Source: Selenomonadales bacterium
GTDB taxonomy: Bacteria; Bacillota; Negativicutes; Sporomusales; UBA7701
Assembly (NCBI GenBank): GCA_029976065.1
Contig: JARKNV010000048.1
Coordinates: 1 to 64,000 of the forward strand
Direction: 5' to 3'
Length of the DNA stretch: 64,000 nucleotides
This document shows positions 2,561-7,536 of this stretch, piece after piece. The first letter of the stretch is position 1. Every line of letters starts with the position of its first letter. The notes below the pieces were generated by a model. The model was not told the origin of the DNA. It did not search any database and was given only the letters and a program-made list of their open reading frames with translations. The position numbers were made by a program, and so were the translations under genes.

Positions 2561-3346
2561 TCACTCCACCACCCACACACCCGCCATCAAACGCAGCCGC
2601 GTGTTGTCGAACGGCATGTCGCCGCTGTCCACCGCCAATATTTCGATATACCCCCGGCAAACGCGGACCTCCAGATCATTCCCCGCATCCCGCCCCACCG
2701 ACGCGTGGCTGACGCTGAAGCTCCCGTCGCCGGTCCTGACCGTCCACTCTCCCTTGGCCTTCACCTGCGGCGGGTTAAAATACTCCAGCCATTTCCCCTT
2801 TTCAAGCTTGCGGGTATTCACGCTCACATACTTACTCCCCGGCCCGTCATGCTTCTCCGCTATCGCCAGCAGCAGCCCGTTCCCCGCGCCGGCCATCGCG
2901 GCATACACGATCTCCCCGTCGGCCCCCGGTGCCAGCGCATAGACAATTTCCGCCTTGCCTGCCCGGTCGCCCCGCCGGCTCTGCGCAAAGACGGCCGCCA
3001 CCTCTCCCGCGCCGGTCTCGCTGGGGCGCAACGTTACGACCCGGTAGCGCCTGTCGCCCGCGCTCGCCCAATCGCCGAAAATCAGCGCGAACCGCCCCTC
3101 GTCGCCGAGGATGCCGCCCGGGTCCGCCGCCAGGCTCTCCTCCTCCCGCAATATATCGAGCAAAGCCGCGTTTATCCTTTTCCCGGCCGCGGACCTTTCT
3201 TCCGGCTGCAGCCCGGCATGATATCCACCCAATTCCGCCCTGAACGCTTCGACCTTTTCGGAAAAGGAATCTCCGGCCCAAGCCGTCTGGGCCATAAGCA
3301 GCACGCCGACGATCGCCGGCACGGCCGCCCGCATCCTCACCTTCAT
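2561..3346 (-). CDS. Secreted protein of unknown function, paralogue B
   Basis: A 261-residue protein, with ATG at 3346 chosen because a signal peptide (MKVRMRAAVPAIVGVLL, cleavage near AWA) begins there; a longer frame upstream has no such start. It is a full-length paralogue of the 273-1076 product. The conserved blocks are GDSF, ELGGYH, RINAALL, EEESL, FGDW, KYVSV, KGEW and WVVE. It is followed after 125 bp by the three-repeat promoter and the M23-type gene, all on the minus strand, so each secreted paralogue precedes one promoter copy. This suggests tandem duplication of a [secreted protein - promoter - hydrolase] unit. Function unknown. Confidence 0.8.
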   Translation of the reverse strand: MKVRMRAAVPAIVGVLLMAQTAWAGDSFSEKVEAFRAELGGYHAGLQPEERSAAGKRINAALLDILREEESLAADPGGILGDEGRFALIFGDWASAGDRRYRVVTLRPSETGAGEVAAVFAQSRRGDRAGKAEIVYALAPGADGEIVYAAMAGAGNGLLLAIAEKHDGPGSKYVSVNTRKLEKGKWLEYFNPPQVKAKGEWTVRTGDGSFSVSHASVGRDAGNDLEVRVCRGYIEILAVDSGDMPFDNTRLRLMAGVWVVE

Positions 3347-3576
3347 CCCCGCACCCCTGCCTTCCGCCCATAATCCCGCGAAGAAACAACCGGCCCCTAC
3401 ATCGACGCCCCGAAAAACCAATTGGCGCGCAGCCATCTCCCGTTTACGCCCGCCGCATGCCGGTCCCCCACCTTCATTCCCTCCGCCGTTCCTCATCGCT
3501 ACCGCATATATTATACATCGGCGGAAATTTCCCTTTATCCCCAAGACCGCGCCCTTTTCCCCCGCCCCCCGTTCCC

Positions 3577-3900
3577 TAGCCCACATTTACGTCTACGCCA
3601 ACGTCGACGCCATGCGGCAACAGCTCGTCCGGATCAACGACTTCATCCACGGCAGCCCCGAAACGGCAACAAGGAATTCACAGCCGTCGAACTGCCCGCC
3701 AAAACGCTTGAAGACAACGGCTTCAAGGTTGAAACCGGCGTCGCCGGCCTCAAAACCGCCTTCGTCGCCGCCTACGCCAACAAACCGGCGGCCCCGTAAT
3801 CGGCTTCCTCTGCGAATACGACGCCTCGACAAACTCGGCCACGGCTGCAGTCACAACCTCATCGCCTCCGCCGTTGCCGGCATCGCCCTCGCCGGCAACG
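3577..3900 (+). pseudogene. Remnant of an M20 amidohydrolase (AbgB-like)
   Basis: Three frames in succession encode pieces of one M20 peptidase: IYVYANVDAMRQQLVRIND, then NKEFTAVEL...LEDNGFKVETGVAGLKTAF, then VIGFLCEYDA, then KLGHGCSHNLIASAVAGIAL. At least three frameshifts join them, the metal-binding HGCGHN is HGCSHN, and the C-terminal two thirds are missing. No start is usable. The family hydrolyses N-acyl or aminobenzoyl-glutamate bonds; intact relatives occur at 10905 and 60634. Confidence 0.75.
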
Positions 3901-3996
3901 GCGGCCCTGCCTGCATCGGAGCATCCTCCGCATTCATTCTTTTCGCTGGCTTCTTTACGTGAATCACATTATAATTATTCTGAGGTGTTGATGCAA

Positions 3997-4620
3997 ATGA
4001 AAGGTCACGTCGAAGCGCCGATATACGCACAGATTGCACTGGACATAGCCGCCTGTATCGCCAAAGGGGAACTGCGTGAAGGAACGAAGATATTGGGGCG
4101 CTCGATGTTGGCCAGCCTGTACAACGTTTCCCCCGAGACCATCCGGAGAGCGTTGCGGCTCCTGGAAGACATGGAAATAGTTGATGTCATCGCCGGCAGC
4201 GGGGTAATTATCCAGTCCCGCCTAAAAGCCCTTGAATATATAGACAAGTATAGCACCGGGAAAGACTTGCGCGATCTCAAGGCCGACATATACGAGCTGC
4301 TCAAAGAAAGAGAGCAGATGAACCAAAAAATATCGGAAAAAATCGAGTACATGTTTGACCTCAGCGAACGCCTCAGGCATACCAACCCCATCAATATAAT
4401 GGAATTCGAAATTCCCTTGAAATCACCCCTAATCGGCAAAATGATTTCGGAAGTGCAGTTCTGGCAGAAAACAGGCGCAACAATCGTCGGCATAAAGCGC
4501 GAAGGGAAGCTCATCCTCTCGCCTGGCCCTTACGCCTGTTTCATGCCGTTGGATATAATACTGGTCATCGGCGATACCGGCATACTCAAGCGGGTCGAAA
4601 GAATAATAGACGAAGGTTGA
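3997..4620 (+). CDS. BusR-like osmoregulator (GntR HTH plus RCK_C)
   Basis: A 207-residue regulator. Residues 1-72 form a GntR-type winged helix (MLASLYNVSPETIRRALRLL), about 85-125 is charged and coiled-coil-like, and 130-205 matches an RCK_C (TrkA-C) domain (PLIGKMISEVQFWQKTGATI...GDTGILKRV). This order is that of BusR, which in lactococci and streptococci represses a betaine importer and is controlled by c-di-AMP. Here it sits just before the opuC-type operon, whose promoter carries a matching inverted repeat. ATG 3997 is preferred to 3991 because GAGGTG is nine bases upstream. c-di-AMP binding is inferred from the family. Confidence 0.85.
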   Translation: MKGHVEAPIYAQIALDIAACIAKGELREGTKILGRSMLASLYNVSPETIRRALRLLEDMEIVDVIAGSGVIIQSRLKALEYIDKYSTGKDLRDLKADIYELLKEREQMNQKISEKIEYMFDLSERLRHTNPINIMEFEIPLKSPLIGKMISEVQFWQKTGATIVGIKREGKLILSPGPYACFMPLDIILVIGDTGILKRVERIIDEG

Positions 4621-4628
4621 ACCGGCCA

Positions 4629-4654
4629 AACCGCCTTTAGGCGGTTATTTTTTT
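4629..4654 (+). terminator. Terminator after busR-like gene
   Basis: AACCGCC-TTTA-GGCGGTT is followed by a run of T. It separates the regulator from the opu operon, which has its own promoter. Confidence 0.85.
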
Positions 4655-4719: not shown

Positions 4720-4767
4720 TTGACAACCCGACAACCCAAAACCTATAATAGAGTTGTCAGTTGTCGG
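4720..4767 (+). promoter_or_regulatory. opu promoter with double inverted operator
   Basis: TTGACA (4720-4725) and TATAAT (4744-4749) are both consensus, with an 18-bp spacer. GACAAC occurs at 4722 and 4730, and its complement GTTGTC at 4753 and 4760, so two half-sites on each side bracket the -10 box. TGACAAC/GTTGTCA and CCGACAAC/GTTGTCGG are perfect pairs. Binding there would block RNA polymerase, as expected of a repressor such as the adjacent BusR-like protein. Confidence 0.8.
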
Positions 4768-4837: not shown

Positions 4838-5959
4838 ATGATTCGTTTTGAGGGAGTATCCAAGGCATATTCAAACGGACAAAAAGTGCTGCATGAGTTA
4901 AACATGCACATCAACGAAGGGGAAATCATTGTCCTCATCGGTCCCAGCGGCTGCGGAAAAACCACGACGCTGAAAATGATCAACCGCCTTATCGAGCCCA
5001 CCCACGGCAAGATATACATCCAGGGCAGGGACATCGGCCAGGAAAACCCGGTCAGCCTCCGGCGCGACATCGGCTATGTAATCCAGCATATAGGCCTGAT
5101 GCCGCACATGACGATCAGAGACAATGTCGCGCTGGTGCCGAAGCTGAAAAAATGGCCCGCAGAAAAATATCTTAAACGGGTAGCCGAGCTTATGCACATG
5201 GTCAACCTGGACCCCGATATCTACGGGAGCCGCTATCCGGCCGAGCTGAGCGGCGGCCAGCAGCAACGGATCGGAGTAATCCGGGCCATGGCGGCCGACC
5301 CGCCGATCATCCTGATGGATGAGCCCTTCAGCGCGCTCGATCCGATCAGCCGCGAGCAGTTGCAGGATGAACTCGTGCAACTGCAAGAGAAAATCAATAA
5401 AACGATCATATTCGTCACGCATGATATTGATGAAGCAATTAAAATAGCCAACCGTATCTGCATAATGAATCAAGGGCGGATTGTCCAACTCGACACGCCG
5501 GAGCACATTCTCCGCCACCCGGCCGACGAATTCGTGCGAAACTTCATCGGCGAAAACCGTTTAAACCTCCGAGAAACATATCCTACTGTCGCGGAGGTGA
5601 TGGTTAAGCCGGTCGCGTCGCGTCCTTCCAGGGGACTGGCAGAAGCCATCATGCTGATGCGCAGGCATAAAGTCGACACGCTGCTCGTCGTCGATGCGGA
5701 CAGCAAGCTGCTGGGAAAAACATCGGTCTGGGATATCCAGAGTCATTACCAGGAAGAATCGATGACGCTGCAGGACGTGCTGCAGGAGGTGCCGCCGGCC
5801 ATAGAAGTGACCCAACCGCTTGCCGATGCAGTTAATCTTATCAGCAAACACTGCATAGCGTATCTGCCGGTTATCGATGAAGAGCGGCGGCTGCTTGGCG
5901 TAATCACCCGCGCCAGCCTTGTGGATGTCATGGCCGAACATTTAAGCGGCGACCTGTAA
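4838..5959 (+). CDS. opuCA: Osmoprotectant ABC transporter ATPase with CBS domains
   Basis: A 373-residue ATPase that powers uptake of glycine betaine, choline or carnitine at the inner face of the membrane. Walker A GPSGCGKT (35-42), signature LSGGQ (137-141), Walker B ILMDEP (158-163) and the H-loop His195 are intact. Residues about 250-370 form two CBS domains, which in OpuA/OpuC sense ionic strength or bind c-di-AMP. It starts at ATG 4838 behind a G-rich ribosome site and is first in a three-gene operon. The exact substrate cannot be read from the sequence. Confidence 0.93.
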   Translation: MIRFEGVSKAYSNGQKVLHELNMHINEGEIIVLIGPSGCGKTTTLKMINRLIEPTHGKIYIQGRDIGQENPVSLRRDIGYVIQHIGLMPHMTIRDNVALVPKLKKWPAEKYLKRVAELMHMVNLDPDIYGSRYPAELSGGQQQRIGVIRAMAADPPIILMDEPFSALDPISREQLQDELVQLQEKINKTIIFVTHDIDEAIKIANRICIMNQGRIVQLDTPEHILRHPADEFVRNFIGENRLNLRETYPTVAEVMVKPVASRPSRGLAEAIMLMRRHKVDTLLVVDADSKLLGKTSVWDIQSHYQEESMTLQDVLQEVPPAIEVTQPLADAVNLISKHCIAYLPVIDEERRLLGVITRASLVDVMAEHLSGDL

Positions 5960-5979: not shown

Positions 5980-6627
5980 GTGGCTATTATCGCAGAATTG
6001 CTGGCAATCATGCAAAACCGCTGGGAAGACATCCTGCTTGCGACGATACAGCACATCGAATTGACGATTATCTCCCTGTTTTTCGCCAATTTGATCGCCG
6101 TACCGCTGGGAATTCTCCTGACGCGTTACCGGCGGTGGGCCGAGCCGGTCATCGGCGTGACCGCGGTGTTTCAGACCATACCTAGCCTGGCGCTGCTCGG
6201 CTTCATGATACCGCTCATGGGAATCGGCGAAGCCCCCGCCATTGTGGCCTTGACCATATACGGCCTGCTGCCGGTCTTGCGCAACACCTATACCGGCATT
6301 GTGGGCGTCACCCCGGCGGTTGTCGAAGCCGGGATAGGCATGGGGATGACGTCCCGGCAGGTCCTGTTCATGGTTGAATTGCCGATGGCCCTGCCTGTGA
6401 TAATGGCGGGAATACGCACGGCGACCGTCCTGCTGATAGGGGTCGCGACCCTGGCGGCGCTAATAGGCGCGGGAGGGTTGGGCGATCTTATTTTCCGGGG
6501 CATTTCCATGGCCAATTCCGAACTGATTCTGGCCGGCGCCCTGCCCGCCGCGTTGCTGGCGTTGATCTTTGACTATGTGCTGAAAAGGGTCGAACTGTTA
6601 GCTCAGCCCAAAGGCCTGCAAAGATAA
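5980..6627 (+). CDS. opuCB: Osmoprotectant ABC transporter permease
   Basis: A permease of about 210-215 residues with five to six membrane segments and the family's EAA-like loop (GIGMGMTSRQVLFMVELPMALP). It carries osmolytes across the membrane with OpuCA. The start is uncertain: the frame opens with GTG 5980, which lies inside the AAGGAGG ribosome site itself, so translation more likely begins at ATT 5986 or TTG 5998. OpuC systems often have two permeases; only one is present, so a homodimer is likely. It lies 20 bp after opuCA and 15 bp before the binding protein. Confidence 0.9.
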   Translation: MAIIAELLAIMQNRWEDILLATIQHIELTIISLFFANLIAVPLGILLTRYRRWAEPVIGVTAVFQTIPSLALLGFMIPLMGIGEAPAIVALTIYGLLPVLRNTYTGIVGVTPAVVEAGIGMGMTSRQVLFMVELPMALPVIMAGIRTATVLLIGVATLAALIGAGGLGDLIFRGISMANSELILAGALPAALLALIFDYVLKRVELLAQPKGLQR

Positions 6628-6642
6628 TCGAGGAGGGATTTC

Positions 6643-7536
6643 ATGAAAAAGGGTTCCTGGTTGCTATTGGTGATATTCCTGGCGGTCGCCGTCGCCGGCT
6701 GCTCGTTGGGCGGCGAAAAAAGCGAACGCATCGTAATCGGCGGCAAGAACTTCACCGAACAAGATATTCTGGTCTATTTGATGAAATACATCATCGAAGA
6801 CAAGACAAACCTCAAAGTGGAAACGAAACCGTTCTTGGGAGGCACCAGCGTCGTAGCGCAAGCGCTGGATCGCGGCGACATCCAGATATACGCGGAATAC
6901 ACGGGAACGGCCCTTATCAACCTGCTCCAGCAACCGCTTATTAATGATCCCCAAAAGGCTTATGAAAAAGTCAAGCAAATTTATAAGGAGCAAAAACGGA
7001 TTACCTGGTTGCAGCCGTTCGGCTTCAACAATACGTATACCCTGACAATGCGGGCCGACAAGGCGGCGGAACTGGGGATAGAAAAATTCAGCGACCTGGT
7101 CGCAAAAGGTCCCGACCTGGTGCTCGGATGCACGCAAGAATTCCTGGAGCGCCCGGATGGGTACAAAGGACTGCAAAAAGTTTACGGGATGAACTTCAAA
7201 AGCGTAAACGGTATGGATCCAGGGTTGACCTATGCCGCCGCGCGCGACGGAAAAGTGGATGTCATCGACGGCTTCGCGACGGACGGACGCATCCCCGCCT
7301 TTAATTTGAAGGTGCTGAAAGATGACAAGCAGTTCTTCCCGCCTTACTACGCCGCACCGATAGTACGCGAGGAAGTGCTCAACAAACATCCGCAAATCGC
7401 CGACGCGCTGAACCTGCTGGCCGGAAAACTCGACGACAAGGAGATGGCCGCTCTGAATGCGCAGGTTGACTTGGAAAAGAAGGACGCCAAAGATGTCGCG
7501 AAACAGTGGCTAAAATCGCAGGGCTTGATTAAATAA
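6643..7536 (+). CDS. opuCC: Osmoprotectant-binding lipoprotein
   Basis: A 297-residue substrate-binding lipoprotein of the glycine betaine/choline type. The lipobox VAGC places the lipid-bearing Cys at residue 20. The mature part opens with the family motif IVIGGKNFTEQDIL and includes GGTSVVAQAL and YAEYTG, both near the ligand pocket. It ends the opu operon, giving ATPase, one permease and binding protein. GAGGAGG precedes ATG 6643. Confidence 0.93.
   Translation: MKKGSWLLLVIFLAVAVAGCSLGGEKSERIVIGGKNFTEQDILVYLMKYIIEDKTNLKVETKPFLGGTSVVAQALDRGDIQIYAEYTGTALINLLQQPLINDPQKAYEKVKQIYKEQKRITWLQPFGFNNTYTLTMRADKAAELGIEKFSDLVAKGPDLVLGCTQEFLERPDGYKGLQKVYGMNFKSVNGMDPGLTYAAARDGKVDVIDGFATDGRIPAFNLKVLKDDKQFFPPYYAAPIVREEVLNKHPQIADALNLLAGKLDDKEMAALNAQVDLEKKDAKDVAKQWLKSQGLIK

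Follow-up and report, generated by a model that had tools for sequence, protein, structure and literature searches.

A BusR-type repressor and its predicted operator with 23-bp spacing at an OpuC/OpuB-type osmolyte importer promoter in a member of the Selenomonadales

The window analysed here, a 64-kb stretch of a Selenomonadales genome, very probably encodes a c-di-AMP-responsive BusR repressor together with its operator, located at the promoter of an osmolyte importer of the OpuC/OpuB type. Judged from the sequence, this predicted BusR-opu circuit varies a known type by its 23-bp spacing and is common rather than exotic. The host is a diderm Firmicute, as the initial annotation had suspected: NCBI puts the Selenomonadales in the Negativicutes, and Omp85/BamA-family proteins are encoded in the genome.

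The regulator gene busR (3997–4620, + strand) encodes 207 residues with a GntR-type winged HTH (wHTH), a coiled-coil linker and an RCK_C (TrkA_C) domain. Its start was placed at ATG 3997, with an alternative ATG at 3991; relatives begin at the same MK. Pfam recognises GntR (1e-9) and TrkA_C (6e-14), and the protein aligns over its full length with S. agalactiae BusR 7b5t (E 2e-34; 7wjg matches with E 5e-38), so that the GntR-RCK_C protein noticed directly upstream of the importer genes is indeed BusR-like. The linker, G72–I153 by the S. agalactiae numbering, is 82 residues long, as it is in 101 of 101 sequences compared. A GntR wHTH joined to RCK_C by a coiled coil of fixed length is what characterises BusR regulators. 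An intrinsic terminator (4629–4646, + strand; AACCGCCTTTAGGCGGTT followed by a T run) separates busR from the opu promoter.

Of six DNA-contact residues known from S. agalactiae BusR, R38, R53, G70 and G72 are identical, K54R is conservative and K36 is lost (K36L). K36 is required for DNA binding by S. agalactiae BusR, and it is also replaced in most Clostridia homologues. The wing residue G72 is likewise required for DNA binding in S. agalactiae BusR. In a second Negativicutes busR clade (L031-L046) it reads E in all 16 sequences; despite G72E, the operator is retained at opu promoters in several of the genomes concerned.

Positions 4720–4767 read TTGACAACCCGACAACCCAAAACCTATAATAGAGTTGTCAGTTGTCGG, in which four half-sites, an inner and an outer pair, can be read directly. 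They are interwoven with a promoter that matches the sigma-70 consensus at 12/12 positions, with the -35 box TTGACA at 4720–4725, a spacer of 18 bp and the -10 box TATAAT at 4744–4749 (+ strand). The predicted left half-site core GACAAC (4730–4735, + strand) lies in the promoter spacer and is conserved in relatives. The inner right GTTGTC (4753–4758) is part of a predicted half-site at 4753–4762, whose - strand reads AACTGACAAC, an exact match to AASTRACAAC. The pair, GAC(4730)-N23-GTC(4756), brackets the -10 box just as the initial annotation had it. A BusR operator is marked by inverted GAC/GTC motifs that overlap an osmolyte transporter promoter, and the core pair at 4730/4753 is the predicted BusR operator of the opu promoter.

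A weight matrix, built from a training set that excluded the window and its close relatives, ranks the site at 4730 first in the 64 kb with a score of 19.0, compared with 0.9 for the next non-overlapping site and a maximum of 7.6 over 20 shuffles. The arms contribute unequally (left 4.5, weak beyond the core; right 14.5). Simple patterns agree: GACAAC-N10–40-GTTGTC has two nested matches in the window where 0.05 are expected, and ACAAC-N16/17-GTTGT has one where 0.01 are expected. A genome scan for the half-sites, which the initial annotation had called for, returned the site at 4730 as the only promoter-like match of the whole genome; the other three read as GC-rich hairpins. These hairpins are what speaks for a chance inverted repeat or an RNA hairpin at the opu promoter as well, an explanation that is next to negligible given 0.01 matches expected per window and the conservation of the site in relatives. 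An RNA hairpin was also rejected because the repeat straddles the -10 box, which would leave its left arm untranscribed from this promoter, and because its conservation is that of a DNA site.

Scanning GTDB contigs yielded 80 busR loci, mostly from Clostridia, and a busR-opu set was formed of 33 loci, the window included, in which an opu/pro-type gene lies downstream of busR. An exact nACAAC...GTTGTn pair with N22 or N23 between the outer trinucleotides was found in 28 of the 33, and the half-site consensus from relatives is AASTRACAACTT. The conservation of the half-sites in relatives, on which the initial annotation had staked its proposal, is thereby borne out. It is very improbable that these are the half-sites of another regulator, with busR nearby by coincidence, given the spacing and the co-occurrence in these 28 loci, and given that the consensus includes the GAC/GTC element known from the literature, with the published spacing in roughly half the loci.

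Two busR clades occur in the window's order. The window's own clade comprises five genomes, the other members having BusRs 70–84% identical to that of the window; those of the second clade are about 40% identical to it. The window's promoter architecture recurs in its own clade, before the same opu operon (L027/L060) and before a ProU-like operon (L028, L029). In Negativicutes with busR distant from opu, the closest opuCA orthologues (61–82% identity) have an N23 site 50–106 bp upstream, which is exact in L195, L196, L199 and L201, has one mismatch in L197 and L198 and two in L200. The site is absent upstream of the opuCA copy of L205 (61% identity). A promoter-proximal site is also absent from the opuCA paralogues of at most 52% identity, two from BusR-less genomes included; an exact match in L208, 347 bp upstream of such a paralogue, is not promoter-like. 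This negative control is small because opuCA is rarer in genomes without BusR (2/20) than in those with it (10/20).

The spacing sets the window apart from the published sites. All four experimentally defined BusR sites are GAC-N22-GTC (PMC8517857), and changes of +5 and -10 bp, the only ones tried in the published gel shifts, abolish BusR binding, whereas GAC and GTC are 23 bp apart in the window. Among the busR-opu loci, exact sites with N22 occur in 15 and with N23 in 15, some loci having both. Each of the remaining spacings between 12 and 41 occurs in 0 or 1 locus, except N30 with 6, which is expected from N23+7 or N22+8 and fits an outward repeat. Two candidate causes were discarded. Linker length is 82 residues in every sequence, and as a property of repressor clades the spacing clusters weakly on the tree, 36–41 of 500 shuffles being as low. 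The N22/N23 label switches seven times or more along the repressor tree, and in three loci both spacings occur close to busR. Closely related, sometimes nearly identical repressors differ, exemplified by Clostridium sp. DSM 17811 (L117) with N23 and C. frigoris (L129) with N22. Since N22 and N23 are equally common, linker length is constant and the spacing has changed at least seven times, BusR can most likely accommodate one additional base pair, and the published 22-bp rule looks too strict in the light of this conservation.

The initial annotation had described a double inverted operator. The four half-sites are there; two operators are less evident. The outer left GACAAC (4722–4727, + strand) is set 8 bp further out than the core half-site and shares GACA with the -35 box. 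On the outer right, GTTGTC (4760–4765, - strand) has its GTT within the extended half-site. The consensus accounts for most of the doubling: the outer left repeat is TTGACA followed by AC, and that on the outer right is for the most part the extended half-site AACTGACAAC; the last GTC, 4763–4765, is left over and unexplained. Because of these two overlaps we read one operator, not clearly two.

The outer right repeat also forms, with CAAAAC at 4737, a weaker N23 site (CAA4737-N23-GTC4763), 7 bp downstream of the core. Its score of 10.6 is the second best of the window and above the shuffle maximum, and an exact staggered site is also present in L029. GTTG is found at the outer right position in 4/4 own-clade promoters compared, the full GTTGT in 3/4. 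This may speak for two overlapping operators staggered by 7 bp, read in two registers or by all four wHTHs of one tetramer. We consider this unlikely: the staggered left partner is missing in L028 and poor in L027, and the outward ACAA on the left side (offsets 7–8), found at 16/35 promoter-side sites, tends to coincide with the -35 box. Furthermore, in the cryo-EM complex (PMC8517857) the second wHTH lies inward, not outward, and touches the backbone. A single operator is the reading retained below.

The operator is followed by three genes on the + strand. The first (4838–5959) encodes an opuCA/opuBA-type ATPase, matching TIGR01186 proV with 426 bits, above the cut-off; it has two CBS stretches in tandem, and this part matches the OpuCA-type structures 5iip and 5ks7. 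The second (5980–6627) encodes a single OpuCB/OpuBB/ProW-like ABC permease (BPD_transp_1; ProW/ChoW family matches are below the cut-off), and the third (6643–7536) a lipoprotein-like osmolyte-binding protein with an OpuAC domain (PF04069, 3e-70). The OpuC-type target with CBS domains thus stands, being a proV-family ATPase with two CBS domains, a permease and an OpuAC binding protein, the set expected of an OpuC/OpuB importer. There is one permease gene here, while classical OpuC has two. In the PDB, the binding protein matches choline/betaine-type binders and resembles EgtU/Lmo1422 as well. Because of the single permease and this twofold likeness the choice of substrate is open, choline, betaine, carnitine and the like all being candidates. 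Elsewhere in the surroundings, a remnant of an M20/amidohydrolase-like gene with several frame shifts was seen by eye immediately 5' of busR (3600–3960, + strand), and two similar, paralogous-looking predicted secreted proteins of unassigned function are encoded at 273–1076 and 2561–3586 (both - strand).

The c-di-AMP pocket of the regulator is identical to that of the solved BusR at 7/11 positions (I153, W159, A164, T165, I166, G180, P181) and changed at the others (G154S, N157Q, V158F, H160Q). Q is found at 160 in 64/78 clostridial homologues, and K is commonest at 157 in Clostridia. Q160 is thus the rule in clostridial homologues and therefore a family trait, not decay. N157 and H160 of the solved BusR contact c-di-AMP, and with this polar rim changed the BusR site could be genuine and the regulator sense ionic strength, K+ or another nucleotide instead, all the more as DNA binding of L. 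lactis BusR responds to ionic strength too. Such a different signal seems improbable to us in view of the seven kept pocket residues and of the c-di-AMP machinery of the genome, namely a diadenylate cyclase gene and two c-di-AMP riboswitches that exceed the Rfam gathering score.

A c-di-AMP-responsive repressor would act here as described for S. agalactiae BusR, from which the scheme is taken (PMC8517857 and PMC5919688). The BusR tetramer would set wHTH domains on both arms of AASTRACAAC-N16/17-GTTGTYASTT, and as these arms flank the -10 box, bound BusR would exclude RNA polymerase. At low osmolarity and high c-di-AMP, the RCK_C domain would bind c-di-AMP, holding BusR on the DNA and opu off. 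Under osmotic stress c-di-AMP would drop, BusR would be released and opu would be turned on. A second brake, at the protein level, may come from the CBS domains of the ATPase. Control of both transcription and transporter by c-di-AMP, as known for L. lactis BusA, is plausible by analogy because of the diadenylate cyclase, the two riboswitches and the match of the CBS part to OpuCA-type structures.

The closest described system is BusR-busAB (opuA) of S. agalactiae (Bandera 2021, PMC8517857; Devaux 2018, PMC5919688). It shares with the window the GntR-RCK_C repressor of equal linker length, the paired GAC/GTC over the core promoter of an osmolyte ABC importer with CBS domains and busR in the vicinity of the operon. 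It differs in having 22 bp instead of 23 bp between GAC and GTC, two sites (pAB1, pAB2) instead of one clear site, and N/H instead of Q/Q at the pocket rim; here, K36 is replaced, the binding protein of the target is separate and there is one permease. Tandem BusR-type sites recalling the paired pAB1/pAB2 were seen 34–35 bp apart in L089 (4756 and 4790), L123 (4755 and 4789) and L110 (4733 and 4768), and 43–49 bp apart in L180 (1434/1477/1526). BusR of L. lactis, according to a review (PMC10243994), similarly represses a glycine betaine importer with CBS domains, busA, and c-di-AMP acts on both repressor and transporter. In contrast to the window's host, L. lactis is a monoderm lactic-acid bacterium, and its BusA binding domain is fused to the permease.

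OpuC systems share with the window the tandem-CBS ATPase (5ks7, 5iip match) and the OpuAC-type binding protein, and differ from it in that only one permease gene is present here. In Listeria, Staphylococcus and S. agalactiae the OpuCA CBS domain binds c-di-AMP (PMC5919688, PMC10243994). In S. agalactiae, BusR was shown on busAB, not on opuC, whereas the predicted operator here is on an OpuC-like operon. CBS-domain transporters under BusR are already known (BusAA), and BusR beside OpuC-type operons is common in Clostridia. The extension of the circuit to an OpuC-type system with CBS domains, as the initial annotation put it, can be kept; the idea that it is special to this host cannot.

Sites with N23 were also found outside the opu promoters. 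One precedes ablA-ablB in G008 (L177), a genome with a BusR of the own clade, and another lies between busR and ablA-ablB on a Melainabacteria contig (L103). In G017 (L178), a third precedes an amino-acid ABC transporter, behind which comes an ablA-like gene. Nine other ablA copies of the order have no site within 1.5 kb upstream; for L185, which is the G017 ablA copy, the site is further upstream, before the ABC transporter. Elsewhere, lysine aminomutase genes are preceded by c-di-AMP and Na+ riboswitches and dapB by Na+ riboswitches (PMC9337991), which makes a wider regulon coherent. An open-access literature search found nothing that deals with BusR in Negativicutes or that links BusR to aminomutase.

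Further BusR-type sites precede genes that were identified by sequence inspection. Some of these genes, in several Clostridium species among others, read as dihydrodipicolinate reductase-like (dapB) and are divergent from or near busR; the sites are in L098, L101, L108, L126, L130 and L133, upstream of busR, and in L041 and L042. At Romboutsia-type loci, TACAAC-N16-GTTGT[AT] (L097:6360, L100:6350, L137:6301, L139:6326) precedes membrane proteins of about 515 aa that look like BCCT betaine transporters.

We lean towards BusR being a general osmolyte regulator in Clostridia, Negativicutes and Melainabacteria, whose tetramer would read 22- or 23-bp registers with unchanged linker length. If this is true, the window is one plain example. 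The claim of a "molecular ruler" is now directly testable, as nature uses 22 and 23 bp equally. Control of osmolyte uptake by BusR and c-di-AMP, established in lactic-acid bacteria, would thereby become a promoter-level prediction for Clostridia and diderm Firmicutes, with AASTRACAAC-N16/17-GTTGTYASTT as a consensus that can be scanned for.
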